Of a stretch of DNA of 64,000 bases, positions 25,655 to 57,031 are shown in pieces. Position 1 is the stretch's first letter, and the number at the start of each line of letters is the position of its first letter. Source of the DNA: a virus; the IMG/VR virus record IMGVR_UViG_3300042398_000686, positions 1 through 64,000 of that record; one strand, 5' to 3'. The translations under genes and the position numbers were made by a program. A model generated the notes under the pieces. That model was given only the letters and a program-made list of their open reading frames with translations. It searched no databases and was not told the origin of the DNA.

Positions 25655-26260
25655 TTAGTTATTATACTTCCAGATATATCCTCCGACTTTTTTATATTTT
25701 CCCGAGCATGCTCCCGAAATACTGGTTTTGTTAGTTTTGGTTTGTAAAGCTGCTTCTTTTATGCTAGTAAAAGTATTAAGTAAATTACCATCAATATCAT
25801 ATTGTAATACAGATTTTGATAATGATTTACTAATAATTTTACAAGTTTGAGAGGTATGGGTTTGACCTTTAAATGGTGATGGTTTATTCAAATGAGATTT
25901 GCTCATTTTTAAACGTGTTTCAGAAGTAATAATTTTACCTTTATGAGATTTACTTAAATTATTTTTCCAATTTTGGTCTTTGCTTCTTAAATATCGACCT
26001 TTTGAAGGTCCTCCTCCACCATTATTTTTATTATCTAATTTAAATTCCCAAGTTTTAAATAATTCTATATAAAATTTTTCCCAATATTTCCATTCAGAGT
26101 TAGGTACTTTATCTATTATAGTAAATTGTATTACATTTTTAGATTTTTTATGGGAATAAAATCTATGAGAAGGATTAACAGTTTTACCTATATATACTTT
26201 ATTATCTTCTAATTCTAATAAGTAAATAAAAACCTCATCAGTGTGATGGTTTGAACTCAT
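25655..26260 (-). CDS. GIY-YIG homing endonuclease with NUMOD3 and NUMOD1 motifs
   Basis: The 201-residue protein has FIYLLELEDNKVYIGKTVNP (GIY-YIG core) and a Glu in YWEKFYIELFKTWEF. A string of NUMOD3-type units follows (WKNNLSKSHKGKI, RLKMSKSHLNKPSPFKGQ) and a final NUMOD1-like VLQYDIDGNLLNTFTSIKEA with GGYIWKY. It sits between gp23 and phoH, a common place for homing genes next to an essential capsid gene. It is downstream of a terminator and an ATATTTATA motif that may have belonged to phoH. Confidence 0.87.
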   Translation of the reverse strand: MSSNHHTDEVFIYLLELEDNKVYIGKTVNPSHRFYSHKKSKNVIQFTIIDKVPNSEWKYWEKFYIELFKTWEFKLDNKNNGGGGPSKGRYLRSKDQNWKNNLSKSHKGKIITSETRLKMSKSHLNKPSPFKGQTHTSQTCKIISKSLSKSVLQYDIDGNLLNTFTSIKEAALQTKTNKTSISGACSGKYKKVGGYIWKYNN

Positions 26261-26345: not shown

Positions 26346-28025
26346 TTAGTTAATACCTAATGCATTTAAACCGTTAACGAATACTTTACCGTAGAATTCA
26401 GGACGTACCATTTTCTTAGCGTAACGAGTCATAATACCTTTACGTGGTGTAAATGTTTCTGGATCGTATACTAATGGAGTCATTAATAACGGAACGTATG
26501 GAGCATAAACAGCACCTGATTCTAAGAATTGAGCACCTTTATAACCCATTAAAATTACGTTATCACTGAAGTAAGGGTTTACATATACTTTGTAACGAGA
26601 ATTTAAAGTACCAATTTTTTGGCTACCAAAGTTGAATACTTTATCTAATTCAGCACCTGCATCTGAAGCATATCCTGGAATTGATTGCATAATAGTTGCA
26701 ACCGCTGGAGATATTACTAAGAAGTTAGCTTGACCTCTAAGAGTTTTCTGTAAGATTTTGTTAGATACTGATTGTAATACTGTACCTAAAGTTGCGAACC
26801 AACCACCTTGTGTGTTATAGAAACCACCTGTTGTAGTTGAAGTTTGAACGAATGATGAACCATTCCAGATTTTGTTGTTTTCTGCTGACCAGTATCCTGT
26901 AGTAGCTGCCTCTTCAGTCAACATACCTAAGATTTCTAAGTCAATCTCCATAGCGATGTATTGAGATAATAATCCAGTTAATTCAGCTTCAGCATCGATG
27001 TTTTGGTAAGCATTTAAATCTTGAGCTAACTCAGGAGTCCATTGTGCTTTTAATTTTCTTGTTTTAGCAACAATAGCATCTGATTTCATTTGGATGTTTA
27101 CTGTTGGGATAACAATTTGGTTATCATCTAATGAGTTAGGTACTGATGTGTTAGTTCTATCTGCTTCGAAATCACCTCTTTGTGCAGGAGTTGTTTGTTT
27201 GCTGTAGAATAATACTGTAGTTGCTGCACCTACTGATGGAGCTGCGTTAGTAATGAATGTTAATGCAGTAGCACCTGATCCACTTGAGTAGTTAGTAAAC
27301 TGTTGTAATACGTTTGCTGGGTTAACACCTGAACCACTGATGATGAAAGCAGAAGCTGCTAAGAAATCAGGAAGATCTAAAGTTGCTAATTGAGCATCAG
27401 AAATACTTACTCTGTATAAAGTTGATGAAGTTCCAATGTAACGAGAATCGTAGTTTACGTATGGTGCTAATGAATCAGAAGCAGCAGTAGCATAAGATGC
27501 TGTAGTTACTGTTACAGAAGCAGAGAACTGGTTCATAGAGTAACCATATCTACCTTGACCGTAAAGACCACCTGTTGGGTTAACGTTTGTAATATCATAG
27601 TCAGTAGCTTGAACATCAGCTAATGAACCGTAAAGTGATTGTCCAGCTACGAATGGGTTTTTGTTATCACCATATTGAAAGTCTAAGTAGAATACAAGAC
27701 CAGAAGGCATAGCCATTGGTTGTACTGAAACGAAGTCTTTAGCTACGATTTCAGCGAATACTCTACGTACTAATGGTAATGCAATACCAGCCCAGTTTTC
27801 ACCTGTACCACCTAACATTGAATTTGTACCAGCAGTTACGTTAGTTTCAACAACTAACTGTTTTGCTTGGTTTTCAAGGATAACAGCCATATTGTTTTTC
27901 TCAATATCACTTGTTAATCCTTCAAGAAGTCCACTTTTAGCCCATTTGTTAGCTGTTTTTGCAGCTTCTGCTTGTTGGCTTTTCCATGGATTTACTCCTT
28001 CTAAAAGAGTGTTTAAATTTTCCAT
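26346..28025 (-). CDS. 23: Major capsid protein (gp23)
   Basis: This 559-residue protein follows the scaffold gene and matches gp23 (T4: 521). The early segment TGENWAGIALPLVRRVFAEI and the LVFYLDFQYG block are family hallmarks, as is the C-terminal TPRKGIMTRYAKKMVRPEFY. Residues 1-51 form the propeptide: LLEGVNPW resembles the T4 LLEGEG stretch, and VILENQAK gives a likely gp21 cut after Glu51, like T4 IFE/N. Highest-expression gene of the head block, followed by a strong terminator. Confidence 0.95.
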   Translation of the reverse strand: MENLNTLLEGVNPWKSQQAEAAKTANKWAKSGLLEGLTSDIEKNNMAVILENQAKQLVVETNVTAGTNSMLGGTGENWAGIALPLVRRVFAEIVAKDFVSVQPMAMPSGLVFYLDFQYGDNKNPFVAGQSLYGSLADVQATDYDITNVNPTGGLYGQGRYGYSMNQFSASVTVTTASYATAASDSLAPYVNYDSRYIGTSSTLYRVSISDAQLATLDLPDFLAASAFIISGSGVNPANVLQQFTNYSSGSGATALTFITNAAPSVGAATTVLFYSKQTTPAQRGDFEADRTNTSVPNSLDDNQIVIPTVNIQMKSDAIVAKTRKLKAQWTPELAQDLNAYQNIDAEAELTGLLSQYIAMEIDLEILGMLTEEAATTGYWSAENNKIWNGSSFVQTSTTTGGFYNTQGGWFATLGTVLQSVSNKILQKTLRGQANFLVISPAVATIMQSIPGYASDAGAELDKVFNFGSQKIGTLNSRYKVYVNPYFSDNVILMGYKGAQFLESGAVYAPYVPLLMTPLVYDPETFTPRKGIMTRYAKKMVRPEFYGKVFVNGLNALGIN

Positions 28026-30098: not shown

Positions 30099-30734
30099 TT
30101 ATTGTCCTGGTAATTCACATGAGCAAAATCCTGCTCTGTTACATAATATTTCTGTTATTAATTCGTTTACTTTTTGGTATTTGTCTGTTTTAACAGCATT
30201 TGGATTAAGTGATTCATTTACAATTTCCATAAATGCACCTTGAGTTGATGGTGTTGAAACAAAATCCCAACATACTAACTCTAAATCGTCTTGTACTTCA
30301 ACAGTTTCTCCGATTTGTTTTACAGAACCCATAGCACGAGATGAAATACCAACAGTAATACCAGCTATCAATAGTGCTTTTAATATATTTCCTGATGGTG
30401 TAGGTAATATTTCAATTTTACCCATTACATCATCACCATTCCACCATAAATCTAAGATGTTATGACATACATTTTTTAAATTAATAATTGGAGACTCAGG
30501 ATGATCTAATTCTCCTAATGCTCTATTTTCTTTAATATATGTAGCTTTATACTTATCAATTTCTCTTTCTAAAGTATCTTTAGGATAAACGCGACCATTA
30601 CCATTTTTAGCATCTGCACGTTGTACTACTCCCTCAACAATCAAACGCCCGTTGTTTTTTACCGCAGATTCTTGCAGTAACTGCGGGGTCAGTGTAAAGG
30701 TGGATACTCGTTCTATTAATAGTTCTTTGCTCAT
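30099..30734 (-). CDS. 21: Prohead protease (gp21)
   Basis: The 211-residue protein matches the T4 gp21 serine protease (212 residues). The catalytic His is in RALGELDHPES (His78), and the Ser is in GISSRAMGS (Ser131 or Ser132). A third conserved acid lies in ELVCWDFVSTPS. It matures the prohead by cutting scaffold, capsid and targeted internal proteins after Leu/Ile-x-Glu. Its own N-terminus has LLQE before Ser, a possible self-cleavage site. The start overlaps the upstream stop. A Cys-containing tail (NRAGFCSCELPGQ) is unusual. Confidence 0.92.
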   Translation of the reverse strand: MSKELLIERVSTFTLTPQLLQESAVKNNGRLIVEGVVQRADAKNGNGRVYPKDTLEREIDKYKATYIKENRALGELDHPESPIINLKNVCHNILDLWWNGDDVMGKIEILPTPSGNILKALLIAGITVGISSRAMGSVKQIGETVEVQDDLELVCWDFVSTPSTQGAFMEIVNESLNPNAVKTDKYQKVNELITEILCNRAGFCSCELPGQ

Positions 30735-37379: not shown

Positions 37380-37641
37380 CTGTTTGTTGTTTAAGTATAG
37401 ATATGTTATTATCTATGTGGTGAATTTCTTTAGTAATATTAATTACGTTATCTTTTACTGAGTCTATTTTGACATCAATTTTTTCGTTAACTGCTTGTGC
37501 TGAGTCTACTTTAGTTTGAAGAGCTTCAATTTTATCTTCATATCCTTTTACATCAGTTCTAATACTGTTTGTATTGAATATATTATACAAACATAACAAA
37601 GCAATTATTATTAATACTATGTCTTGTTTAGTTGCCTTCAT
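37294..37641 (-). CDS. Membrane-anchored coiled-coil protein; possible inner spanin
   Basis: The 115-residue protein has an N-terminal membrane segment (IVLIIIALLCLYNIF, residues 9-23). A long periplasmic-looking coiled coil (KIEALQTKVDSAQAVNEKID to the end) follows. This is the usual shape of an inner-membrane spanin. The downstream exported protein starts within its final 86 bases. No endolysin or holin gene was recognised nearby, which weakens the lysis reading. Confidence 0.6.
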   Translation of the reverse strand: MKATKQDIVLIIIALLCLYNIFNTNSIRTDVKGYEDKIEALQTKVDSAQAVNEKIDVKIDSVKDNVINITKEIHHIDNNISILKQQTDEKINSVDSFTANELEQFFTNRYDKGSN

Positions 37642-38089
37642 TGTCTATTTTAAGAATAACTTTAACTAAATCTCTAACATCTTCCGGATTTACTACTATT
37701 TCTTGTCCGTTGTCTTGTGTCAATATAATAAAATTACCATCTTTTCTTACTTCAATTTGGTATCTAGATCCTGGTGCTACATTGGCGTTTATTTCGTATA
37801 TTTCATCATACATTTTAGCAATATCACCACCATCTGATGAATCAACATCTTCTACATCTTCGATAATTGTATTATCGTCATCATCTAAAAAATCTTCTTC
37901 TCTAATAACTTTAACAGCGTTTTTTTCTGTTCCTATTGTTGGGTCTCCTTCTTTTGCTCTTAGTGTTTTTATTTTCTGGCTTATTTGAGGGTCTGTTAAA
38001 GGTGCTCCTGTTTGTTGAATAATTACAGCTTCACCCATTTTTTTACGTATAATACCGCGAATATTTTCTTTTAATTCACTTACTTTCAT
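37628..38089 (-). CDS. Acidic protein with targeting-like leader (153 residues)
   Basis: The leader KVSELKENIRGIIRKKMGEA closely resembles those of the 161-residue protein at 47.2 kb and the internal segment of the 1021-residue protein, and ends in Met-Gly-Glu before Ala. The middle is very acidic (EEDFLDDDDNTIIEDVEDVD). The end is a small beta-like domain (GSRYQIEVRKDGNFIILTQD). I do not recognise the family. A packaged internal protein is suggested by the leader. Confidence 0.62.
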   Translation of the reverse strand: MKVSELKENIRGIIRKKMGEAVIIQQTGAPLTDPQISQKIKTLRAKEGDPTIGTEKNAVKVIREEDFLDDDDNTIIEDVEDVDSSDGGDIAKMYDEIYEINANVAPGSRYQIEVRKDGNFIILTQDNGQEIVVNPEDVRDLVKVILKIDNEGN

Positions 38090-39086: not shown

Positions 39087-40412
39087 TTACTTAGATTTCA
39101 AAATATCTTCTGATACATAAATCCCATGTGCGCCACTTACTGTTATACCTCTAGCGGAAAGTGCATCACCAACAAAATGTACGTTAGGATACTTGGTCAG
39201 GGCTAAGTTAGTATAATCAACAAGCGGCTCAGGTGATAGATATTTTACTTCAGGTATATAAATACCCCAATTGTCTTCTAATGTTGGGAATACTTTTTTC
39301 ATATCTTCGATAAAATCTTCAATATAATCAAAGTACCCTTCAAATGTTCTTCTAACATCCATCATATCAGCATCTGATATTTGATGTGCTTCTACGTGTC
39401 CTCCTTCAGATGTAAGTGATACTTTACGTGATGGAGAGTAATATAAACCTTTACCATCTACTGATTGTAATTGTGATACAACATTTCTTGACCATTCAAA
39501 TGGATTTTCAATACCATTTAACTCCATAATAATACCAAAGTTAGTCATATCGTTTCTATACTTCTCATCTTTTTTAGCATGACCATTGTAAGTATAGTTT
39601 CCGTATGTTTCTTCTACTGCAACATAAGCAGCATTATTATTAGTACAGAATGAACGTAATGATACTCCTTTATTGTCGAATTTTCTATATAATTTAAAGT
39701 CATATGAAATATCAATTAAGTTTTGAAAGTGGTGTTGTGGTGCTTCAAATCTAACACCAATTTGTACTGATTTAGGTTCAGTTGGTAGATCATATTTTTC
39801 AGCTAGTTGTTTACCAAAGTCAATACCCGATTTACCTACACCAAAGATAAGTGTATCATATGATATAATTCCATGATCCCATGTAATTTCGTTTACTGGG
39901 TCTGCTTTTAATGTTTGGTTAACAAATGCAATTTCCGTTACTTTAGTTTCCCAAATAAAGTTAACACCCTTATCAACTAAATATTCATACCAATTTTTAG
40001 CAATTTCTAATAGATAATCAGTTCCAACATGCCATACAGGAAACAATCTTAAACCAAAATATGGTTTAATAAAATCAGGTTCAGCATCTGGGTTTGAACA
40101 TTGTACTTCTTCAGGTTTAGGATGGAAACGTTTAAAGTTAGTTATAACTTGATCCATCAATTCCATTGCTTTATCTTCACCACAGTATTTAGAAAGTTGA
40201 CCTCCAATGGCTGTATGATAAGTTAATTTACCATCAGACCAACCACCAGCACCTAACATACCAGTCATTACTTCACTTGGTAATCTTTTATGAGGATCTT
40301 TCCCCATATCAATAATTGTAATTAAATGACCAGGATAGCCATTGTCTACTAATTTAGTAGCAGCATTAATACCTGCTACTCCTGCACCTACTATTACTAT
40401 TTTTTTACTCAT
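39087..40412 (-). CDS. FAD-dependent oxidoreductase, COG2509-like
   Basis: I start at SKKIVIVGAGVAGINAATKL, which places the FAD-binding GxGxxG at the usual distance from the N-terminus; an upstream ATG would add 21 unlikely residues. The 441-residue protein has the COG2509 signature GAGGWSDGKLTYHTAIGGQL, then VWHVGTDYLLEIAKNWYEYL, and a closing NVHFVGDALSARGITVSGAHG. Family members are uncharacterised flavoproteins of bacteria. It has two nearby possible signals: a terminator before it and the next genes downstream. A flavin oxidoreductase among late phage genes is unusual and suggests a host-derived metabolic gene. Confidence 0.85.
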   Translation of the reverse strand: MSKKIVIVGAGVAGINAATKLVDNGYPGHLITIIDMGKDPHKRLPSEVMTGMLGAGGWSDGKLTYHTAIGGQLSKYCGEDKAMELMDQVITNFKRFHPKPEEVQCSNPDAEPDFIKPYFGLRLFPVWHVGTDYLLEIAKNWYEYLVDKGVNFIWETKVTEIAFVNQTLKADPVNEITWDHGIISYDTLIFGVGKSGIDFGKQLAEKYDLPTEPKSVQIGVRFEAPQHHFQNLIDISYDFKLYRKFDNKGVSLRSFCTNNNAAYVAVEETYGNYTYNGHAKKDEKYRNDMTNFGIIMELNGIENPFEWSRNVVSQLQSVDGKGLYYSPSRKVSLTSEGGHVEAHQISDADMMDVRRTFEGYFDYIEDFIEDMKKVFPTLEDNWGIYIPEVKYLSPEPLVDYTNLALTKYPNVHFVGDALSARGITVSGAHGIYVSEDILKSK

Positions 40413-40442
40413 GTTTATATCTTTTGAACTGTTAAATATACG

Positions 40443-40478
40443 AAAAAAAGATGTGGTCTCAAAAACTGAGGCCACATC
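40443..40478 (-). terminator. Rho-independent terminator before the oxidoreductase
   Basis: The minus strand forms GATGTGGCCTCA-GTTTT-TGAGACCACATC followed by T7. It ends the unit containing the 215-residue protein. Confidence 0.9.
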
Positions 40479-40530: not shown

Positions 40531-41178
40531 TTAGAATTTTTTATTATTGATTTGAATAATTTTAGCTATAGATTTTTTATAAATTCTATCATCATTATCT
40601 CTAGTTACAAATACATTTTTCTTATCACCAGCTACGTTTTTAGCGTAATAAGTAGTTTTATCATCTTTAAAAAATAAACGAGTACCTTTACCTATATCTT
40701 CTGGTTTAGCGTTTTCATCTAATTCAGGTTCATCTGATTCCGCTATGGCATCAGGAATAATGTATTCGTTTTTACCAATTTTAAGGTTTTTAATAGTATT
40801 AGCATTAACCATTCTATACCCTTTAGCACCCATATCATATACTGTGATGTAATTGAATTCAGCTGGGTCATATGCTAATGTTCCTCCTTTTAGATATTTT
40901 TTAACACCTAAACGAGCATTCATTACACGCTCACTACCATCTTTTTTAATAAATGTTACAGTAAAGAATTTACCTTTAGTATCGAATATTAATTCTTTAG
41001 CAGTTTCTTTATCTATTTCACCTGATGGTTCAGACGGTGTTTCAGCTGGTACAGCAGGAATTTGAGCTAATGGGTCATCAGCTGGTATTCCTTCTGCTTC
41101 TGGTTGTTCGTTTAGTATTTGTGAGTTTCTAGTCATTTTATTTTCAACTAGAAAACGTTTTAAGTCAAAATTATCCAT
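40531..41178 (-). CDS. Probable internal protein with leader and beta-domain (215 residues)
   Basis: The leader DNFDLKRFLVENKMTRNSQI continues to ILNE before Gln, giving two Leu-x-Glu sites. A Pro/Glu-rich linker follows. The main domain reads FFTVTFIKKDGSERVMNARL, GVKKYLKGG and YITVYDMGAKGYRMVNANTI, a small beta-barrel-like layout that I recall from several phage proteins without assigned function. A second short beta region with TRLFFKDDKTTYYAKN ends the protein. No catalytic motif is visible. Confidence 0.62.
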   Translation of the reverse strand: MDNFDLKRFLVENKMTRNSQILNEQPEAEGIPADDPLAQIPAVPAETPSEPSGEIDKETAKELIFDTKGKFFTVTFIKKDGSERVMNARLGVKKYLKGGTLAYDPAEFNYITVYDMGAKGYRMVNANTIKNLKIGKNEYIIPDAIAESDEPELDENAKPEDIGKGTRLFFKDDKTTYYAKNVAGDKKNVFVTRDNDDRIYKKSIAKIIQINNKKF

Positions 41179-42050: not shown

Positions 42051-42530
42051 TTATAATTCTTCCGGTTCTACTGGAGGTGTTGATGATTCTCCTTTAGCTG
42101 GTGTTAAATTTTGTTGTGCTAAGTCTTCAGGTGACATGTTAGCATTTATAGGACCGTATTGTATTAGTTCAGATATGGATTTGATTGCTCTTTCTCTTTC
42201 TTGAAGTGTTAGCATGTCATATTTTTTACCGGCTACTTTAACAATAAAGTCTTCTGTATTCCAAATTAAATTAAAATACTGTTTATTAGGTAATATTACT
42301 TTAAATGTAGTAGGTCTTGGAGCAACCCATTGAATATCATCAACAAACAATCTAAATTGCATTGTTAATAATTTTTCTAATGTTTGTCTCAATTGAGGAA
42401 AACGTTGAAGTATTAAATTCATAGGTGAATTTGGATCACCTTGATATGCTTCTTCTGCTGTTTTTCCTAACAGTTGACGAACTCTACCTCTTACGTAATC
42501 TTCTAATTCTTGTTTTGAATTAAATTCCAT
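42051..42530 (-). CDS. Protein of unknown function (159 residues)
   Basis: I do not recognise it. It opens with a helix EFNSKQELEDYVRGRVRQLL that resembles the other leaders but ends in AEEAY rather than a clean Leu-x-Glu site. A small domain with FRLFVDDIQWVAPRPTTFKV and YFNLIWNTEDFIVKVAGKKY follows, then a helix and an acidic Pro-rich tail. Start overlaps the upstream stop by one base. Virion association is possible from the neighbourhood. Confidence 0.6.
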   Translation of the reverse strand: MEFNSKQELEDYVRGRVRQLLGKTAEEAYQGDPNSPMNLILQRFPQLRQTLEKLLTMQFRLFVDDIQWVAPRPTTFKVILPNKQYFNLIWNTEDFIVKVAGKKYDMLTLQERERAIKSISELIQYGPINANMSPEDLAQQNLTPAKGESSTPPVEPEEL

Positions 42531-43111
42531 TATTTACGTTTTATTATATTTTCTAATTGATAGTCTGATGCAGGTCCAGCGTATGCTCTTCTATCACTTT
42601 CTAATTTACTTTGTATATTAGTTAATATACCTAAAACAGTATTTAAACCTTCAGCAATATCATCAGGTTGTTCTACACCAAAATCCATTGTTTGTTCTAC
42701 TCTAGATAACATACCTCCGATCATACGGATTGTATTTACTAGTTCTGGTCCTTTCATTTCTTGTAATGAGTCAATAGCTGCTACTTTTTCTTCGCCGTCT
42801 AGATATCCATAAGCGCTTTGTAAATAATCATATGCTTTAATGATTTTAGCTTGCCACCAATGGGGAAAATCTACTTCTCCTCCTATTTTATCATAGTTAT
42901 CTAACTGCTTGTATAACATAGAAGCCATTTTAGCTATTCTATATACATCGCTTTTAAGCATTTTTGGTTCGTCGTCTTGATGACCTACGTCTAAGTCTTC
43001 ACTTTTAAGTTTAACTCCTCTACCTTTTAAGATATCTGCTCTAGTTACTTTACCATCACCTGTTAAATCAGGGAATTTACTTTCATTAAGTATATTTTCT
43101 AAATTAAACAT
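42530..43111 (-). CDS. Helical protein with ILNES leader (193 residues)
   Basis: The first residues FNLENILNESKFPDLTGDGK contain Leu-Asn-Glu before Ser, a candidate gp21 cut. PDLTGDGKVTRADILKGRG looks like a calcium-binding EF-hand or dockerin-type loop (DLTGDGKVTRAD). The rest is helical with no recognised family (YRIAKMASMLYKQLDNYDKI). It begins a three-gene group with its own late-promoter-like motif. Confidence 0.62.
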   Translation of the reverse strand: MFNLENILNESKFPDLTGDGKVTRADILKGRGVKLKSEDLDVGHQDDEPKMLKSDVYRIAKMASMLYKQLDNYDKIGGEVDFPHWWQAKIIKAYDYLQSAYGYLDGEEKVAAIDSLQEMKGPELVNTIRMIGGMLSRVEQTMDFGVEQPDDIAEGLNTVLGILTNIQSKLESDRRAYAGPASDYQLENIIKRK

Positions 43112-43125
43112 AATTGTTATTTTGT

Positions 43126-43134
43126 TATAAATAT
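43126..43134 (-). promoter_or_regulatory. ATATTTATA late-promoter-like motif
   Basis: The exact motif lies 14 bases before the 193-residue gene and overlaps the stop codon of the gene upstream. Confidence 0.5.
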
Positions 43135-44144
43135 TAATCTAAATCAGATAATCCAGTATCATCTTTTTTAAGGTCATCTACAATATCACGCATTGAATCA
43201 CTAGCCCATTTCTTTTGATCGTTTGTTAATTCATTGTTTATAGCATTTTCTATAAATTCAATAAATTCGTCTTCAGGTAACCTATATATTTCTGTAAATA
43301 ATAATTCTCTAACTCGTGGATCATTTATATTACTGTCATTATATATGTCTGAAATTGCATCATAAATGAATTTTCCATATTGAAAATCTCTAGGTTCGTT
43401 TTCTAATTTATCTACAGCACCTACGATTGCTTGATTTTTTTCTTTATCAGATCCAAATCCTTCAGTACCTACTATTTCATATAATCCTTTTACGATTTCA
43501 TGAACTAACATAGGAAAACAAATAGCTCTAGCTTTAATAATGAATTGATCTTCATCTTCATCATACACCATTTCGCTTTCACCTCCAGGGATGTTTTGTT
43601 TTTGAGCAATCATTGCTAATAACATAGCAATAGCTTCCTCACTATCATAGATACCAAATGATAATTTTAATATTTCACTATATTTAGCTACTAAAGCTTC
43701 ATCAATAGCATCTAGATAATCTCTAAACAATAAAAATGCAAATGAACCTCTAATAGAGGCACCTTGAGTAATACCGTTTATAATACGACGTTTTGCTTGT
43801 TGCGCTTCAGGTGGTGCTTCATCCGCTGGAACTTCATCCTCACTTGGTGGTGGGATTTGAATGTCGTTCATAGGAACTATTTTAGCATCGATTTTAATAT
43901 TAGCATAATCAATAATAGGATATGCTTGTGTTACAATATCAGCTGCTAAAAATTCTAAACTATCACGATATCCCTCTTCAGCTTCAACTAATTCAGGTAC
44001 TAAACCAGAAGAACGCATTATAGCTTGTTGAAGATTTTTATCCCCTAACATTTGTCTTAATGATTCACCTGACTTACCTTTTAAGGCAGCCATGGTTTCT
44101 GGTTTGAATATTTTTTCGTATTCTATTTCTAATAAATGAGCCAT
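43134..44144 (-). CDS. Protein of unknown function (336 residues)
   Basis: The protein is largely helical and acidic, with AHLLEIEYEKIFKPETMAAL at the start, a Pro/Glu linker near residue 110, and FIIKARAICFPMLVHEIVKG followed by LYEIVGTEGFG. The LVHEIVKG segment has a His and Glu but not HExxH, so I do not call a protease. It starts at the stop of the 1021-residue gene. I do not recognise a family. Confidence 0.6.
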   Translation of the reverse strand: MAHLLEIEYEKIFKPETMAALKGKSGESLRQMLGDKNLQQAIMRSSGLVPELVEAEEGYRDSLEFLAADIVTQAYPIIDYANIKIDAKIVPMNDIQIPPPSEDEVPADEAPPEAQQAKRRIINGITQGASIRGSFAFLLFRDYLDAIDEALVAKYSEILKLSFGIYDSEEAIAMLLAMIAQKQNIPGGESEMVYDEDEDQFIIKARAICFPMLVHEIVKGLYEIVGTEGFGSDKEKNQAIVGAVDKLENEPRDFQYGKFIYDAISDIYNDSNINDPRVRELLFTEIYRLPEDEFIEFIENAINNELTNDQKKWASDSMRDIVDDLKKDDTGLSDLD

Positions 44145-44392
44145 TATTTTTTAGATTTAAAACGTGCTACAATTTGTTTAATAATTTCTTGCTCATTTTC
44201 ATTCATCGCTTTAGGTCTTGGTTCCACATTTGGGTTACCAATTCTACGACGTTTTTTCTCTTCTTCAGTACCTCTATCAGGAATAGTTTCAGTCCCACGT
44301 TCAGGTGTTTCTCTTGAAGGTGCTGGTTGGTTTTCTGCTAGTTTTTTCTTAATTACTTCCCTAACTAGAGATTTAAACTCATTTATTTTCAT
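44144..44392 (-). CDS. Possible nested gene at the 3' end of the 1021-residue frame (82 residues)
   Basis: An internal ATG, preceded by A-rich sequence like the leaders of other genes, would give a separate 82-residue protein. It starts MKINEFKSLVREVIKKKLAE, almost the same leader as two stand-alone genes. It then has a basic, Pro/Arg/Glu-rich middle and ends QEIIKQIVARFKSKK. Either it is translated internally as well, or a formerly separate gene has fused to its neighbour. Confidence 0.4.
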   Translation of the reverse strand: MKINEFKSLVREVIKKKLAENQPAPSRETPERGTETIPDRGTEEEKKRRRIGNPNVEPRPKAMNENEQEIIKQIVARFKSKK

Positions 44393-47209
44393 GTTTTTAT
44401 TGTTAGATTGTTTACGTCTTGCTAATTCATCCTTAACACCTTGTATTTCTTTTTCATTACCTTCATATCTTGAAAGGTTTATGATCATATCTGTTAAAGC
44501 GTCATTTGAATAATCTTTAAAACTTTCTTCTGCGCTATATGTTTCTTTCATTGGTGTTTTATTTTTTAAATTTTTCATTTCCTCTATCATATATGGATTT
44601 TCTTGTAAATGTAATTTAACTAATGATGTTCTCAAAGTCTCTAGTATATTTCTGTTTTGTAAGAAACTTACTAATTCACGTGGTGAATTTAAAGAATATG
44701 ATCTATCACCCACTACTACATAATTTCTATTTCCTGGTTGTATGTTTATAGATGCTATTCGTGTATCATTATTTAATCTAATGAAGTATATTTTACTTGG
44801 TCCTACACTAATAACATTAGTAACTCGACCTTGTCCAGTTAATAAATTATCTCTAGCCGAAGCTCCTCTATCACCTATTCTGTTTAAAGCAACAGCATCT
44901 GTAACATTTAATCTTCTAAAATCATTTCTAGGTAGACTACCAAATCCAATTCTTAAACCTCTTTCACTAAAAGCATCTGCTATGTTTACATCACCTCTTT
45001 GTCTTTCTTGTGGAACACGAGGTGTATTCCCTACACCAGCTGGTCTTCCTCTCCTAGGAGCCCCATCTTGTGGTGCTACTGGTGCTTGAGGTGCTGTTTG
45101 TTGAGCGGCTGCTGGCGCTTCTGGTTCTGCTTGTTGTGCTTGTGCTCCTAATAAACGTCTAGCAGCAGTAGCATTAATATTTGCTTTAATTAGTTTACCT
45201 GATGTATCAGATAATTTTTTACTATCAGCGGGGTTTCTAGTATTAATTAAATATACTGTATCATTATATTCTACAGGACGATATATGTTTGTGTCTTGTA
45301 AAGGTAAATTTGGGTTTGTTAATATTGATCTTTTAAGATCAGTTGGCATCCCATATGATGAAAGAGCATTAATTAAACCTTCATCTGTAAATGTTTGATT
45401 TAATCCTCTTAAATAAGCAAAATAAGCATCTAACATTTCGGGGGTGAAGCGTTCATTGATAGATACATTTCTCCAATCGCTTTTTTTTCCATATACTGTT
45501 TTAGAATAAAAAGGATTTTCTCCTCGAACATTAGGAAGAGCAGTAGTTGTAAATATTAATGGATTTTCTTCATCCGTTGTTAGTATAACTAGGGGATAAT
45601 TAGAATAATCAGTATTACTAATTATCCTTTTTTCATTTGAAGTTGATTTTAAAATAGAAGTTAAACCTACTCTATCTATTTGAGAAGGTATATTTTCTCG
45701 AGAAGTAAATAAATTTATTACATTTTGTTGAAAAGATTCATTGTCGTCTTGTTCGTCAAATATAGCTTGTACTTCTTCACTATCAAATGGTATTTGATTT
45801 ATCTTACCATTTTCTATTTTATATGAAGCAAATGAATTTGAATCAACAATAATCTGTCCATTATCGGTATCTTTAACTATAATAGCAGAATTTGGATTGT
45901 TTTTAGCTGTTTCTAAAGTTTGGTCTAAAAGTGTCTGGTCTATTATTTCATCAGAGACTAATTTAGCTAAATCTCTAAATGGTATTTTATCTAATTCAGG
46001 ATAATCTGTTATATATTTTGATGTTCTTTTATTTAATTTAATACTAGGATAATCATCTTCAGCAGTATAAATACCCGCTGTAATATTATCTCCTAGTTCT
46101 AATTTAACAATAGCGTTACCATCTTTAGTAACGTATATTCTTTCATTATTGTTTAATTTCCATTTATCTAATGTTGTTAATAATTTTTTAACATCAAATG
46201 GTAATTTATCTGCTTTTAGTTCAGATGTATCTATTTTGTCTCGCATGTTTGCGATAATAGATCTTCTATCACTATTTGAAAAACTTTCTAAATGTTTTAA
46301 TAATTCTTCAGTTTCTATTATCCCAGGAGTAATAGCAATAAATTCAGCTAGTTGAGGTAATTTAGATAAATATTTAGATAAAAATTCATCATTTGAAATA
46401 TCATCAAATAATTTTCTGCCTTTTCTAACTACTAAATATTGTTGTTTAACCTCAAATGGTAATTTAATCCATTCTCTAATCCCAATAGGTTTATTTTTAT
46501 ATTGTTGGGTTACTTTTTCTCCTGTATTTAGTGGTATATATTTAAGTACTTGTTGAACGTTTGGTATTTCACGTAACCAAGGAACTTCTCTCTCTAATTG
46601 AGTAAAACTCATTGGTTGAGATTCATGAGGAGAATTAGATCGGTTTGTATAAACGTATCTTTGGTTTTCTGAAGTTGTTTTGGGGTCTCTGACTTGTATA
46701 GCAACAAAGCTTAAAGGATCATTATTTGATAAATTATTATTTTGAGCTAAATAGAATGTTGGATATGATCTATCCCCACTGTATCTGTAGTTTCCATAAG
46801 AACCTCTTGTAATACACCATCTTTCACCTCGACCATAATTGACACAATTGTCTTCTTTAGAACCATTATAAACAATAATAGTATCATCATCATTATGATA
46901 TACTACATCAGGAGTAATATCTACTGTTTCAGGTGTTTCTGCTCCTTTAGAAGAAGTAACTAATCGAATTAGTTGTGATAATGAATATTTAAATAAATCT
47001 TTTTCAGGAATTTTAGGGGAATTTTTTAAAACATCAAAACGTTCAATATATTTTTTTAATTGTTCGTCATTGATTTCTATATTTAAATCATCTGCTTCCT
47101 CTTTAAATTTATCCATTAATTTAGTCATAACAGAAGGAGCATAAGCTTCATTCAGCCCATTCTCCCAGTTATGAATAACATGTAATATAAATTTATCTAT
47201 TGGTCTCAT
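44144..47209 (-). CDS. Large multidomain protein with targeting-like leader (1021 residues)
   Basis: The first 30 residues (FILHVIHNWENGLNEAYAPS) include Leu-Asn-Glu before Ala. Residues about 100-220 hold a domain with DDTIIVYNGSKEDNCVNYGR, then GERWCITRGSYGNYR, YPTFYLAQNNN and FVAIQVRD. A WC-containing domain of this sort recurs in large phage proteins, as I recall, without known function. The middle is long and helical-beta mixed. A Gln/Ala/Pro linker lies around residue 690-740. The C-terminal 140 residues look like two small proteins joined on, the last starting KINEFKSLVREVIKKKLAEN. It could be an internal or ejected virion protein. Confidence 0.7.
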   Translation of the reverse strand: MRPIDKFILHVIHNWENGLNEAYAPSVMTKLMDKFKEEADDLNIEINDEQLKKYIERFDVLKNSPKIPEKDLFKYSLSQLIRLVTSSKGAETPETVDITPDVVYHNDDDTIIVYNGSKEDNCVNYGRGERWCITRGSYGNYRYSGDRSYPTFYLAQNNNLSNNDPLSFVAIQVRDPKTTSENQRYVYTNRSNSPHESQPMSFTQLEREVPWLREIPNVQQVLKYIPLNTGEKVTQQYKNKPIGIREWIKLPFEVKQQYLVVRKGRKLFDDISNDEFLSKYLSKLPQLAEFIAITPGIIETEELLKHLESFSNSDRRSIIANMRDKIDTSELKADKLPFDVKKLLTTLDKWKLNNNERIYVTKDGNAIVKLELGDNITAGIYTAEDDYPSIKLNKRTSKYITDYPELDKIPFRDLAKLVSDEIIDQTLLDQTLETAKNNPNSAIIVKDTDNGQIIVDSNSFASYKIENGKINQIPFDSEEVQAIFDEQDDNESFQQNVINLFTSRENIPSQIDRVGLTSILKSTSNEKRIISNTDYSNYPLVILTTDEENPLIFTTTALPNVRGENPFYSKTVYGKKSDWRNVSINERFTPEMLDAYFAYLRGLNQTFTDEGLINALSSYGMPTDLKRSILTNPNLPLQDTNIYRPVEYNDTVYLINTRNPADSKKLSDTSGKLIKANINATAARRLLGAQAQQAEPEAPAAAQQTAPQAPVAPQDGAPRRGRPAGVGNTPRVPQERQRGDVNIADAFSERGLRIGFGSLPRNDFRRLNVTDAVALNRIGDRGASARDNLLTGQGRVTNVISVGPSKIYFIRLNNDTRIASINIQPGNRNYVVVGDRSYSLNSPRELVSFLQNRNILETLRTSLVKLHLQENPYMIEEMKNLKNKTPMKETYSAEESFKDYSNDALTDMIINLSRYEGNEKEIQGVKDELARRKQSNNKNMKINEFKSLVREVIKKKLAENQPAPSRETPERGTETIPDRGTEEEKKRRRIGNPNVEPRPKAMNENEQEIIKQIVARFKSKK

Positions 47210-47215
47210 TCAATA

Positions 47216-47701
47216 TTATTTTAAATCTAATTCAATACCTGCTTTTTTTGCTGCTTGTAAAAGTTTTTGTTTATATGTTTCTTTTTCTTCATCACTCATA
47301 TTAGAATGTTGTTTTACTCGTTTCCATATATCCATTGCTTTAACATAATCAGATGTTTCTTCACCTTCTGTAAGTTTAGGGCGTAAAGTTGTATTTACTC
47401 TATCTATTAAGTTTTGAATTTCTTCATCTTTATAACCACTTACTCCCTCTTTTTCTAGTTGATTTTTTACATACTCAAATGTAAATTGATCAATATCAAC
47501 AGCAGATGGGGATGATATTAATGTTCTATTAGGAATAGCTCCTAATCCTGGGTTGTGAATTGCAAGTTTAACACTTCCGTTATTATATAATGTAGCGTCT
47601 AAAGATCCTTCTTTATTAGAAACCGACCCTACACCATTTATTTCATTTAATTTAGATTTAACTATATTTCTTATAGCTTCTTTTAATTGTGATGTTTTCA
47701 T
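47216..47701 (-). CDS. Protein with targeting-like leader (161 residues)
   Basis: The leader KTSQLKEAIRNIVKSKLNEI is the clearest example of the shared helix, ending Leu-Asn-Glu before Ile. The body has SLDATLYNNGSVKLAIHNPG (beta-like) and helices, with SDEEKETYKQKLLQAAKKAG near the end. No family is recognised. It is grouped with the 1021-residue protein. Confidence 0.6.
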   Translation of the reverse strand: MKTSQLKEAIRNIVKSKLNEINGVGSVSNKEGSLDATLYNNGSVKLAIHNPGLGAIPNRTLISSPSAVDIDQFTFEYVKNQLEKEGVSGYKDEEIQNLIDRVNTTLRPKLTEGEETSDYVKAMDIWKRVKQHSNMSDEEKETYKQKLLQAAKKAGIELDLK

Positions 47702-47713
47702 ATTATAATTTAA

Positions 47714-48103
47714 TTATTTTGTTTTACCCCAAGAGTCACCTTTACCTTTATCCTTACAAGCAGCTGGCGTTGGTCTGCAAGATGGGTATTTTGAACGTTG
47801 TTCACCTGCTTTACGTCCACATGATTTACATTTACCATCTCGACATGTATTACAATCAACCCAACCTCCTTCTTTACCTGGTGCTCCTTTACGTTTGAAC
47901 CAAGTGCGAAGTGTTTCTTTTTGTTTTTCGTCTAATTGATCTAACTGTTCTTTAACACCTTTCCAAATATCACCTTTACGGCATCTAACAATAGCACCAG
48001 ATTTGTAAGCAGATGGTTTATCGTATTTACGATCTGCAATGCGTTTACATCTGTCCTCTTTTTCTTGGATTATTTGTTCTAATATTTCGGAGAGTTTAAT
48101 CAT
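47714..48103 (-). CDS. Cysteine-rich protein ending in a YPSCRPTP motif (129 residues)
   Basis: After the leader IKLSEILEQIIQEKEDRCKR comes AYKSGAIVRCRKGDIWKGVK and then the strongly patterned WFKRKGAPGKEGGWVDCNTC, KCKSCGRKAGEQRSKYPSCR, PTPAACKDKGKGDSWGK. This Cys/Arg/Lys block recurs in phages and bacteria as a small unnamed domain. It may bind metal and nucleic acid. The C-terminal YPSCRPTP tail is the family mark as I recall it. Confidence 0.7.
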   Translation of the reverse strand: MIKLSEILEQIIQEKEDRCKRIADRKYDKPSAYKSGAIVRCRKGDIWKGVKEQLDQLDEKQKETLRTWFKRKGAPGKEGGWVDCNTCRDGKCKSCGRKAGEQRSKYPSCRPTPAACKDKGKGDSWGKTK

Positions 48104-48359
48104 ACTTTTTTATCTTAACAAGTAAAGGTCCTGTACCTTTTATAGTACGGTGATACACATGTTTAGGTATAAATATTGGTTTATCTAGTAATATAGGAAG
48201 AGAGTCATCTAATTGTACTAGCCAATCAGTTGACTCTAAAGCTTCTACTAATCTATCTTCATTATCCATATGCCACATAAGTTCTACAGGATCTATATTC
48301 TCATCAAATTTACGAATTATATATTCGTCTGTAGTTTCTATATTTGTATATGGTTCCAT
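48096..48359 (-). CDS. Small conserved phage protein with WH...D and YHR motifs (87 residues)
   Basis: I start at the ATG (MEPYTNIETTDEYI) that overlaps the upstream stop as TAATG; a TTG two codons earlier is less likely. The protein has ELMWHMDNEDRLVEALEST, DWLVQLDDSLPI and IPKHVYHRTIKGTGPLLVKI. The regularly placed His and Asp and the strand pattern resemble a small cupin-like fold. Similar proteins occur widely in phages and marine genomes, as I recall. No function is known. Confidence 0.65.
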   Translation of the reverse strand: MEPYTNIETTDEYIIRKFDENIDPVELMWHMDNEDRLVEALESTDWLVQLDDSLPILLDKPIFIPKHVYHRTIKGTGPLLVKIKKYD

Positions 48360-48994
48360 TACCAATAACCTGAAAATGTTGTTTTAAATCCTAGCATTTT
48401 AGCATAACGTGGTAATCTACAAGACCAATATGATGCTTTGGTTCTATCTTTTTTATTAGCACAATCATGACGTTTAGCAAATGCTTGACGTGCTTTAGAA
48501 TTATTTAATTTAGCTTTTAATCCAGTAGTGTCACCAAATGATACTTTTTTAACTTTGTCTCCGTCTTTAACGTAAACATAGAATTTTTTAGAACCACCGC
48601 GTTTAGGTTTCCCAATAGATACTTTTTTACCTTTAAATTCAGCTTCATCTATTTCTTGTGATTCATGTAGTTCTAACAATTCATCAAGTGATATAGGATA
48701 ATCTAAAGGTACTTTTATACCTTCATAAATACCATATTCACCTAAATTTGATTCTAATAATTCAGCATCATCTTCTACTACGGATAATAATCCTTCATTA
48801 TATAATGCTCTGGTTTCTCTAACTAGAGCCATGTAGTTAGAAGATAAAGGTCTATAAATGTTATGTATTAACATTCTACCTTCTTGTATGTGATAACTTA
48901 GCCCTTCAGAAAGTAAAATATTATTTTTACCTTCGTTAAGCATTAATTTAGGACCATTACATCCACAGTCGTCAATAGGAGTTATATTATTCAT
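48359..48994 (-). CDS. Protein with RHxCxxKxDRTKASYWSCRLPRYAK motif (211 residues)
   Basis: The N-terminus has two candidate gp21 cuts (LMLNE before Gly, LLSE before Gly). The C-terminal domain reads KKFYVYVKDGDKVKKVSFGD, then ARQAFAKRHDCANKKDRTKA and SYWSCRLPRYAKMLG. This Cys/His/Arg-rich block is common in phages of aquatic bacteria, as I recall, often at the end of capsid-associated proteins. It looks metal- or nucleic-acid-binding. Exact role unknown. Confidence 0.68.
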   Translation of the reverse strand: MNNITPIDDCGCNGPKLMLNEGKNNILLSEGLSYHIQEGRMLIHNIYRPLSSNYMALVRETRALYNEGLLSVVEDDAELLESNLGEYGIYEGIKVPLDYPISLDELLELHESQEIDEAEFKGKKVSIGKPKRGGSKKFYVYVKDGDKVKKVSFGDTTGLKAKLNNSKARQAFAKRHDCANKKDRTKASYWSCRLPRYAKMLGFKTTFSGYW

Positions 48995-52831: not shown

Positions 52832-53263
52832 TTAAATTAAGTCTTTGCGGAAGAATTTACCTAATATATTGTCATTATATGAATTATAATTAAGTAAGCA
52901 TTCATTTATGCACTGATAATGTAATTCGTAATATGTTAATTCTTTTTTATCTTTACAAAGTTTTAGAATAATACATTCAAACATTTCAGTTCCTAATTCT
53001 TTAACATCTTGTTGTAATTCTTTAGATGAACCCCAATAAGATCTCCAGTCACTTTCCTTAATTACTTGCTTTGTAGTCGATTTTCTTCCTCGAGTCACGG
53101 GAAGTGCTGCTAATTCTTTTTTCCCCAATTTAACATTGGAAGTATGGTAGAAATATTTCTTACCAATATAGAATTTACTGTTAGTAAGATTTGTAATTTT
53201 ATATACAAATCCAAAGTAGTCTTGAGGATCAAATTCCTCCGAGTGTAACCATTTATTTTCCAT
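52832..53263 (-). CDS. GIY-YIG nuclease (putative Seg-type homing endonuclease)
   Basis: The 143-residue protein reads FGFVYKITNLTNSKFYIGKK, then WRSYWGSSKELQQDV and ECIILKLCKDKKELTYYELH. This is a compact GIY-YIG domain (GFVY...YIGKK, Arg in RSYWGSS, Glu in YYELHY) like the Seg endonucleases and related phage nucleases. There is no NUMOD tail. It lies between a tail structural gene and the primase, so it may be a free-standing homing nuclease or a replication-associated enzyme. Confidence 0.8.
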   Translation of the reverse strand: MENKWLHSEEFDPQDYFGFVYKITNLTNSKFYIGKKYFYHTSNVKLGKKELAALPVTRGRKSTTKQVIKESDWRSYWGSSKELQQDVKELGTEMFECIILKLCKDKKELTYYELHYQCINECLLNYNSYNDNILGKFFRKDLI

Positions 53264-54415: not shown

Positions 54416-57031
54416 TTAAAAACATGTGAACGGTAATTGTCCCTCATAGTTTATTATTGTTGATGTAAAATTTACTGAATACTCATCATATACATCAAAT
54501 CCAAAAAATGGGTCATAATATTGATATTGGTACCAAAATTCTGCTAAAGAATACATTAATGTAAATGTAACGGCACCATCATCAGTAGCATAATAATAAC
54601 CGTCACTACCTAACCATATACCATAAGCAGGACCACAAGGTGTACCAGGAGTCCAATCATTAGCATAGAATGTATATGATATACCTGATACTGATGGTGT
54701 TATACTTGGTGTAATTGATGGTGTTTTACTAATACTAATTGAAGGCGTTACACTTGGTGTTTTACTAATACTAATTGAAGGCGTTACACTTGGTGTTTTA
54801 CTAACCGATATTGATGGTGTTACACTTGGAGTAGCACTAGGTGTTCTACTTACACTAATAGATGGCGTTATACTAATCGATGGTGTTATACTTGGAGTAA
54901 CACTAGGTGTTCTACTTACACTAATACTTGGAGTAGTAGATGGTGATGGTGGAGCAGGGCATGGATTAAATGCTGTACATGCATTACAATCTTCAAACCC
55001 TAAATCACCACTCCACGTTATAGTTGCAACTGGTTCAATATTACTGTTTATAAAGAAACATTCATCTGTTGTTGATGTTACTACTGTTCCTATAAATGCC
55101 GCTGGTATTACCATTCCTTCTTTTCTAGAATCACAACAACTTATTGCTTGGCGAATAACTGATGGTGATGAAGTAGAAGGTGTTCTACTTGGTGTTACAC
55201 TAGGTGTTTTACTAACCGATATTGATGGTGTTATACTTGGTGTAACACTAATCGATATACTTGGTGTTATGCTAGGAGTAACAGATGGTGTAGCACTAAT
55301 CGAAATCGATGGTGTTATCGAAATTGAAGGCGTTACACTTGGTGTAACACTAGGTGTTTTGCTTATACTAATCGATGGTGTAATACTAATAGATGGTGTA
55401 ATACTAATCGATGGTGTACTTGATATATTAGGCGTTACACTTGGAGTATTAGAAATAGAAATACTAGGAGTAACAGATGGTGTTGCGCTAATCGATATAC
55501 TAGGTGTAATTGAAATCGATGGCGTTATACTAGGAGTAACACTTATAGAAATTGATGGTGTAACAGATGGTGTTGCACTTATACTAATACTAGGCGTAAT
55601 ACTAGGAGTAGCAGATGGTGTAACAGATGGTGTTGCACTTATCGAAATTGAAGGTGTTATACTAATAGACGGTGTTATACTCGGCGTTATACTTGGTGTA
55701 GCGCTTATCGAAATTGATGGTGTTACACTTGGAGTAGCACTTATCGAAATCGAAGGTGTAATCGATGGTGTTGTACTAGGAGTAGCACTAATCGAAATCG
55801 ATGGCGTTATCGAAATTGAAGGCGTTACACTTGGAGTTACACTTGGTGTAGCACTTATTGAAATTGATGGTGTTACACTAGGTGTTGCACTAATTGAAAT
55901 CGAAGGCGTTATTGATGGTGTTATACTAGGTGTTCTACTTGGTGTTACTGATGGTGTTCTACTAACACTTATACTTGGTGTAGGACTTACTGACGGTGTA
56001 GCCGATGGAGTTCTACTAACAGATATAGTTGGTGTTGTTGTTGGTGTAACAGTTGGAGTAACAGATATAGTTGGTGTTGGTGTTACAGATGGTGCTGGTG
56101 GTGAAATTTCTATAATACCTATTTCAAATTCACATTCTGGATCTGTTACATTTACTGTTATACTTCCTGTACCACTACGTAAAGGAGCACAATAAGAACC
56201 AGTAACTAAAAATGTATAAAAAGTTTGATATGTCCCTACTCCTAAACCAGAGAAAGACATAGATACAGTGTTACTAGAACCTGTACTAAAGAATGATATA
56301 TCCCCTCCAAATAAAGTAATAGATTGATTTACTAATGTATTACCCCTTAAATCATCATTTATTAAAGGATTAAATGAGAATGTTGCTGGGTTAGGGTAGT
56401 CACTTCGTATAATTGTGTAATTATCATCGTACGCTACTGGAGGTAATACAAATAATGTTTGAAAATCTTGACTAGTAATTACTACTGTACCTTGTTCATA
56501 AAAAATATTACCTACGTGAGCTGGTGGATTACTATTAAAGTTATCATAAACATTACCCTTACCATCATCATAAAAATTATACTGAGATGATGACATTTGG
56601 AAAGTATAAGGTAATAATCTACTTCCGTAAGCTTTAGGTGATATTTGTATTACCTTTATTTCCTCATTTGCTCCTGTTGGGAAATTAGAAATAAAAGCAG
56701 GGTCATTGTTATAGTTAAAATATGAAGCAGTAGGGTGACTACTGCTAGCTGATTCATAATATAATGATGATGCTAATGAAGATGTATTTAAACTACCTGA
56801 AAAGTCATGGTAAAATAATTGGTTAATCTGTCTATACGTTAACCTATCATAATGTCCATTAGTTATCCAATCCTCATTAGGATTAAATAGATCTGTTGAA
56901 TTTATACCATTATAATACGAAACATAAGGGTCATTAGTTGGAACCGGACAATAATTAAAGTTCCAACTTTTATTTGCTACAACAGGTACTGTTATAACAT
57001 CCGAAGATTTTAACTTTTTGAATGAACCCAT
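54416..57031 (-). CDS. Large TPS-repeat adhesin (871 residues)
   Basis: Residues 1-310 form the N-terminal region (KKLKSSDVITVPVVANKSWN, CPVPTNDPYVSYYNG), probably the part that attaches to the tail, ending in an Ig-like VPPVAYDDNYTI-type domain. Residues about 311-620 are a long stalk of SISISATPSVTPS repeats. A cysteine module beginning SCCDSRKEG follows, then more repeats, then an 89-residue end module (YANDWTPGTPC to the final CF). The last two modules match the 454-residue adhesin. It lies between the 246-residue adhesin and two tail structural proteins. Confidence 0.8.
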   Translation of the reverse strand: MGSFKKLKSSDVITVPVVANKSWNFNYCPVPTNDPYVSYYNGINSTDLFNPNEDWITNGHYDRLTYRQINQLFYHDFSGSLNTSSLASSLYYESASSSHPTASYFNYNNDPAFISNFPTGANEEIKVIQISPKAYGSRLLPYTFQMSSSQYNFYDDGKGNVYDNFNSNPPAHVGNIFYEQGTVVITSQDFQTLFVLPPVAYDDNYTIIRSDYPNPATFSFNPLINDDLRGNTLVNQSITLFGGDISFFSTGSSNTVSMSFSGLGVGTYQTFYTFLVTGSYCAPLRSGTGSITVNVTDPECEFEIGIIEISPPAPSVTPTPTISVTPTVTPTTTPTISVSRTPSATPSVSPTPSISVSRTPSVTPSRTPSITPSITPSISISATPSVTPSISISATPSVTPSVTPSISITPSISISATPSTTPSITPSISISATPSVTPSISISATPSITPSITPSISITPSISISATPSVTPSATPSITPSISISATPSVTPSISISVTPSITPSISITPSISISATPSVTPSISISNTPSVTPNISSTPSISITPSISITPSISISKTPSVTPSVTPSISITPSISISATPSVTPSITPSISISVTPSITPSISVSKTPSVTPSRTPSTSSPSVIRQAISCCDSRKEGMVIPAAFIGTVVTSTTDECFFINSNIEPVATITWSGDLGFEDCNACTAFNPCPAPPSPSTTPSISVSRTPSVTPSITPSISITPSISVSRTPSATPSVTPSISVSKTPSVTPSISISKTPSVTPSISISKTPSITPSITPSVSGISYTFYANDWTPGTPCGPAYGIWLGSDGYYYATDDGAVTFTLMYSLAEFWYQYQYYDPFFGFDVYDEYSVNFTSTIINYEGQLPFTCF
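55160..56100 (-). repeat. Coding repeats: long SISISATPSVTPS stalk
   Basis: About 310 codons of tandem units, the longest such tract in the window. A second tract lies at about 54690-54955. Unit spacing is irregular and codon choice varies, so the pattern is kept at the protein level. Confidence 0.85.

Follow-up and report, generated by a model that had tools for sequence, protein, structure and literature searches.

The prohead protease gp21 of phage T4 cleaves after the motif L/I-x-E, and the internal proteins of T4 carry 10-residue leaders that are removed by this enzyme (PMC9026906). Residues 1-10 of IPIII are enough for targeting proteins into the T4 head, an Asp at the final position of the IPIII leader prevents its processing, and both ends of Alt are removed (PMC9026906). 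Other T4 precursors (gp22, gp67 and gp68) are converted by gp21 into several fragments (PMC9026906). In SPN3US and phiKZ, the prohead protease removes propeptides from head proteins after a short x-x-E motif (PMC5694885). Finally, the polyvalent proteins of phages and plasmids are multidomain proteins that are likely packaged in the head and for which processing has been proposed (PMC5512222).

Here we analyzed a 64,000-nucleotide stretch of viral DNA (hereafter the window), which belongs to a virus record of 71,694 bases. Its head genes resemble those for T4 IPI-IPIII and Alt in presenting short N-terminal leaders with an end of the L/I-x-E kind, a gp21 homologue and small, variable payloads. 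The T4 internal proteins are separate genes, however, whereas payloads are here also chained in one ORF through LxE joins, with a leader that is internal. The gp22, gp67 and gp68 fragments are scaffold peptides that are mostly removed from the head, but the pieces found here are independent genes in relatives. The head proteins of SPN3US and phiKZ differ in their motifs (A-x-E and S/A-x-E) and in their propeptides, often longer than 100 residues, and the papers that we read on them do not describe chained cassettes. As in polyvalent proteins, several domains share one polypeptide, both in the fused protein with its extra cassettes in relatives and in gp079 of Flavobacterium phage immuto. Processing of polyvalent proteins has been proposed to occur via built-in metallopeptidase domains (PMC5512222), whereas the joins described here bear prohead-protease motifs. 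Conflict-related or peptidase domains were not found in the window's fused protein with Pfam and PHROGs, and an ExoX-like_C domain is present in one relative (L097).

The head block and the 1021-residue protein

The window encodes a prohead protease of the gp21 type and a T4-type major capsid protein, the nearest isolates of the latter being Flavobacterium phage immuto (55% identity) and Microcystis phage Mel-JY01 (49%). In our own reading, based on position and sequence, terminase-, portal- and scaffold-like ORFs complete a T4-type head block. The host likely belongs to Bacteroidota. The features needed below are as follows:

26346-28025: major capsid protein, T4-type
30099-30734, minus strand: prohead protease of the gp21 type (Peptidase_S77), presumed to make the cuts (PF03420, E=1.1e-29; phrog_207 head maturation protease, E=2e-57)
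44144-47209, minus strand: large head-block protein fused to a leader-bearing module, 1021 residues (ORF list; homologues split or fused)
47147-47209, minus strand: leader at the N-terminus of the large protein (M1-E21), with a final LNE (10-sequence alignment; structure model)
44393-44557, minus strand: segment of about residues 885-939, past the point where the large protein usually ends and ahead of the module (alignment, ORF tails)
44393-44412, minus strand: A-rich start-like context AACAATCTAACAATAAAAAC (score 4.44)
44390-44392, minus strand: ATG of M940, kept in all fused relatives and corresponding to the start codon in split relatives
44333-44392, minus strand: capsid-targeting-type leader M940-E959 (MKINEFKSLVREVIKKKLAE), kept in relatives; low-confidence model helix 942-959 between disordered stretches
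44333-44341, minus strand: predicted gp21-type site LAE (957-959), expected cut E959/N960 (relatives' P3; T4 gp21 motif, PMC9026906)
44147-44332, minus strand: payload N960-K1021, 62 residues, charged and proline-rich, predicted to be mostly disordered
43134-44144, minus strand: downstream 336-residue gene, whose ATG overlaps the fused stop codon (TAATG)
47216-47701, minus strand: 161-residue protein with the same leader type, MKTSQLKEAIRNIVKSKLNE (ORF list)
37628-38089, minus strand: 153-residue protein with the same leader type, MKVSELKENIRGIIRKKMGE (ORF list)

The C-terminal 82 residues of the large protein (M940-K1021, reading MKINEFKSLVREVIKKKLAENQPAPSRE...KSKK from the methionine) constitute a complete leader-bearing gene that is in frame with its upstream neighbour. 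An earlier note on this DNA had remarked that the leader at residue 940 resembles the starts of separate proteins; indeed, the leaders compared begin the ORFs of the 161- and 153-residue proteins. The leader DNA CTAACAATAAAAACATG (44390-44406, minus strand) occurs once in the window, with 0 copies expected from shuffled sequences, and the out-of-frame TAA noticed in it is readily seen from the frame of the ORF at this point (AAC AAT AAA AAC ATG). The remark on this leader thus proved accurate in all its details and, because many related genomes carry a separate gene homologous to the segment, it is more than chance.

The large protein also has a leader of its own at the N-terminus, which the earlier note had missed: L19 and E21 of its terminal LNE are invariant across an alignment of 10 sequences, and the structure model presents a helix at residues 3-14 and disorder at 18-23. 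This AlphaFold model of the entire protein is of modest quality (mean pLDDT 69, pTM 0.43) and no PDB match to it had an E-value below 0.28. It is helical at 942-959 with low-confidence stretches at 934-941 and 956-1002, which suggests that LAE lies at the end of a helix beside a probably flexible region. Searches of Pfam and PHROGs returned no match for the 1021-residue protein and, for the other two leader proteins, none that passed a curated cut-off. Using tblastn against phage isolates, no relative of the large protein was found, and the 336-residue neighbour yielded two partial matches only, both in uncultured phages.

Several other ORFs of the window were noted in passing. A 462-residue oxidoreductase-like protein (39087-40475, minus strand; KKIVIVGAGVAGINAA) lies within the head block and is kept in relatives. 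ORFs resembling GIY-YIG-type homing endonucleases, recognized by eye, are found among the structural genes (21515-22231, 25655-26260 and 52832-53263, minus strand). Tail-region proteins (54416-57031, 9197-13429, 4127-6031 and 6549-7913, minus strand) present long repeats of a single type (12 protein letters, not shown), which is common to at least four genes.

Fused and split forms among relatives

Viral contigs were scanned with the large protein and its 336-residue neighbour, which is a conserved neighbour of the module among relatives. This yielded 137 loci, the window's own included. Counting a single genome for each distinct neighbour protein, we found the large protein in frame with the module in 9 genomes and the two in separate frames in 49; in 26 further genomes the contig stops short of the large gene or the gene is absent. 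We built a tree from residues 1-880 of the large protein, leaving out the module (64 rows), and scored a relative as fused only if the module shares the frame. The earlier note had proposed to look for split versions in related phages, and these are present in most of them: 54 of the 64 distinct relatives on the tree are unfused and 10 are fused, rather than all presenting the long form with a conserved junction, which the note had named as the refuting outcome. The starred branches of the tree force at least four changes between the two states, located at the window's clade, at the clade of L011, L012 and L016, at L110, and at the unfused L006, which falls, along with L046 (likewise unfused), within the window's clade or next to it. 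Based on these sequence comparisons, the fusion is real and recurrent.

The same note had suggested that the fusion was recent. The existence of split relatives and of more than one event shows a fusion, but its recency does not hold up: identity to the window's large protein drops to 58% among the fused members of its clade and, since the large proteins of these members thus differ by up to ~40%, the fusion in this clade is not especially recent. The segment found between the two parts in the fused window clade varies in sequence from member to member, which indicates that separate fusions within the clade are possible. We considered whether an assembly or sequencing error could have merged two genes, as a single base change or indel could delete a stop codon. 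A second record (L001) presents the identical fused sequence (100% identity), however, and the fusion is also seen in diverged relatives (58-81% identical), whose inserted segments differ, which makes such an error extremely improbable.

In most split genomes, the module adjoins the large gene through an ATGA stop/start overlap, a short overlap or a gap of one to two bases, and ATGA overlaps and gaps of +1 or +2 are among the commonest spacings in the split relatives where the module is traceable. Wider gaps separate the two genes by 44 bases in L006, by 819 bases in L113 and by ~4.4-5.3 kb at eight loci. Several split relatives present AAA AAA TGA with the ATG one base back, such that a -1 frameshift at the A-run before TGA might produce the fusion and both forms would always be made. 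The A-run is not conserved, however: L015 reads AAA ATA AAA TGA, L008 and L009 have TAA two bases before the ATG, and L006 has its 44-base gap. We therefore rejected programmed frameshifting as a conserved mechanism, and we regard it as very improbable that the split relatives produce the fused form in this way.

All fused forms keep the methionine and an LxE motif (LAE, LSE or LME) immediately before a body starting with N-x-PA. Leader residues 2-9 are highly variable (MKINEFKSL, MTKEDLKNY, MRINEFKSL, MKEDLKKY, MKLNELKNL, MDKSKLKEI). Across the contexts of 68 distinct relatives, 61 have L, I or M at P3 of the site, six have T and one has V. The six with T count against cutting at this site, and LxE, being short, often arises by chance (at ~1% of positions). 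A further exception that counts against it is the split module of L123 (L123:8595-8849, plus strand), in which SAN replaces LxE before the body.

The conserved methionine raises the alternative that internal initiation is the main route, with ribosomes starting at M940 to produce an 82-residue, leader-first protein in addition to the long protein. Bacteroidota mRNAs are devoid of Shine-Dalgarno sequences (PMC6847099), so that an A-rich context would be expected of a start. We scored starts with a position matrix derived from the window's 62 called gene starts relative to all internal ATGs. Among the 265 ATGs that lie in frame inside the window's genes, only 1.1% are as good as M940 (score of 4.44, better than 98.9% of them), which bears out the earlier impression that the DNA before M940 looks like a gene leader. 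This score corresponds to the 73rd percentile of the window's real gene starts, each scored with itself left out, and is the best among the twelve in-frame internal ATGs of the ORF; the corresponding contexts in eight other fused loci score 2.3-8.8. In addition, T4 gp21 itself possesses a second internal start at Met45 (PMC9026906).

The leader helix is retained in the fused proteins although it would be needless if only the cut mattered, and this counts against a model based on cutting. Indeed, a cut needs LxE only, yet the whole leader and its methionine are retained in all fused lineages, which hints that an internal start is still in use in addition. However, the A-rich context is partly inherited from the separate gene and partly due to the Asn and Lys codons of the linker, and the fused forms may not have existed long enough for its loss. 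An internal start at M940, and thereby a dual use of the module, is consistent with the conserved methionine and the start-like context; as the main route, we hold internal initiation to be a tentative possibility. The leader is N-terminal in split relatives and is internal in the window's protein unless M940 is used, as its context may indicate.

LxE motifs at domain joins

In relatives, the module gains extra small domains, which either separate the leader from the body or follow the body. At the joins to the body, E is the last residue in nearly all cases and P3 is L, I, M or T, as in LAE/NQPA (L043), INE/NQPA (L070), LSE/NSPA (L112) and TNE/AAAPAPS (L055). C-terminal additions behind the module present [LIMT]xE at their start in 10 of 11 cases, a count from which L028 and L102 were left out as they are not C-terminal additions. 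The segment VTPAQERYRV...NLGE precedes the leader in the fused L102, whereas the split L047 carries it after the leader, in the form VTAAQLRYAV...DLDE. Several relatives carry an ExoX-like_C domain (PF20600, E=1.1e-10 in L097) before the leader, together with ...KEN-MKIKQLREAIR.

Two further arrangements were observed. A module with two tandem leader-like segments (MTKQQLYESIRRNIKSSIQENLQEAYIKQLREGIRRIIRQELNE) is found at L043:4913-5431 (plus strand) and possibly reflects a leader duplication. The protein TTDEYIIRKFDENIDPVELMWH... (48096-48365, minus strand) is separate in the window and constitutes the C-terminal part of homologues of the 336-residue protein in L010, L013 and L014, where it is joined at LEGLDE or LEDLDE; this is a second fused/split pair.

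We then compared all ORFs of at least 50 residues from the loci and the window against each other (1537 distinct proteins). A boundary was defined as the start of a single local alignment that is preceded on each side by seven or more unaligned residues, with lengths differing by at least 20. Among 140 non-redundant homology boundaries, 42 present L, I, M or V at the start. An E was found two residues further on in 22 of these 42 hydrophobic starts when 3.2 were expected from composition (P=2e-14), although BLAST alignment starts are imprecise and related boundaries were incompletely removed. At offsets 1 and 3-7, E was found 2-5 times, as expected, and no other residue was enriched at offset 2, save for one His (0.4 expected). 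Boundaries with a non-hydrophobic start presented E at offset 2 in three cases relative to 7.4 expected. A looser test over a wide range of positions yielded a modest excess (31% vs. ~21%) and the excess became sharp with exact offsets. Bulk counts of [LIM]NE were raised in the window's head block (18 vs. 6.9 expected, P=3e-4) and marginally so in the head block of immuto (11 vs. 6.2 expected, P=0.05). Because the counts in immuto are only weakly raised, our claim rests on the position of LxE at boundaries and not on its frequency. On the basis of these alignments, LxE sites mark domain joins in the head-block proteins of these phages, and we consider this result to be weightier than the fusion itself. 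The processing of internal proteins by gp21 is known; what is new is the presence of LxE sites at the joins of head-block domains.

Flavobacterium phage immuto is a cultured relative (host Flavobacterium sp. LMO8) with a genome of 160,410 bases and a prohead protease, gp070. Its gp079 (L138:19007-21532) is an 841-residue protein annotated as hypothetical, and two proteins that are separate in the window match parts of it:

42530-43111, minus strand: 193-residue protein with leader MFNLENILNE, whose body corresponds to gp079 residues 309-414 (71% identity over 106 residues)
42051-42530, minus strand: 159-residue protein homologous to the C-terminal part of gp079

Homologues of the window's 159-residue protein (L004:10473-10958 and others) match gp079 residues 704-817, residues 194-248 match a cassette located behind the module leader in L069, and more stretches match other separate genes. 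Six LNE or MNE motifs are found in gp079, with [LIM]NE at residues 198, 256, 389, 483, 532 and 610; other immuto proteins have two at most. From these matches, gp079 resembles a natural chain of five or more cassettes, and some of these (several) are separate genes in the window's relatives. Two immuto proteins were discarded as homologues of the window's pair: gp079 occupies the syntenic place of the large protein but is not homologous to it, sharing cassettes with other window genes instead, and gp078 is syntenic but not homologous to the 336-residue protein. A second leader type (MENFDLKKFLVENKLT...) is common to unrelated proteins of these phages. The ORF at 40531-41178 (minus strand) of the window presents this type (MDNFDLKRFLVENKMTRNSQILNE), which is nearly the same on the unrelated immuto proteins gp076, gp092 and gp003.

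These patterns bear on a simpler explanation, namely that the module stays uncleaved, as a tail at the C-terminus of the large protein, and that its leader is a relic. The single open frame without a stop and the variable, linker-like segments inserted between the two parts would be expected in this case. LxE and the methionine are kept in every fused lineage while nearby leader residues change, however, LxE is found at many other homology boundaries, and a gp21 homologue is encoded. We consider a plain fusion of this kind unlikely.

Proposed organization of the internal head proteins

The best explanation, and probably the correct one, is that the module was formerly a gene of its own, which encoded a small internal head protein; this gene became fused, and its product is cut by the prohead protease at LxE. 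The module would comprise 20 leader residues of the T4 capsid-targeting kind, with LAE at their end, followed by a payload of 62 residues. The stop codon before it would have been lost here and, independently, in other lineages, which would generate a single 1021-residue precursor. This precursor may enter the prohead via its own N-terminal leader, and the gp21-type protease would then cut after LxE at LNE21 and LAE959, thereby freeing the same mature payload that the separate gene yields. Fusion and splitting would be nearly neutral if the cut precursor gives this same payload, and the fusion would be tolerated because the protease can separate the pieces. Release of the module by gp21 is well supported indirectly, by the gp21 homologue, the conserved LxE and the LxE sites at many other fusion points. 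We infer packaging, cleavage and ejection with the T4 gp21 system as our model, and a role of the payload after ejection would be a guess only, drawn from the T4 internal proteins.

More generally, many head proteins may be built as cassettes, that is, as capsid-targeting leaders and payloads linked by LxE, and joins that the protease can cut would allow cassettes to be fused, split, inserted or swapped at little cost. We did not find such an arrangement of cassettes in a polyprotein processed by the prohead protease described in the open-licence literature that we searched. If it is true, an LxE motif at a homology boundary would predict the ends of mature head proteins, likely including ejected ones, from metagenomic sequence, such that proteins lacking annotation would become a readable code. 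It would also offer a simple reason for the recurrent gene fusion and fission in these phages, and the idea is testable in the cultured phage immuto. For this T4-like lineage, probably one of Bacteroidota, we give about even chances to the broader proposal that internal head proteins are cassettes punctuated by prohead-protease sites, that recombination at LxE shapes the cargo of the head, and that a single ORF may be a polyprotein of ejected proteins.
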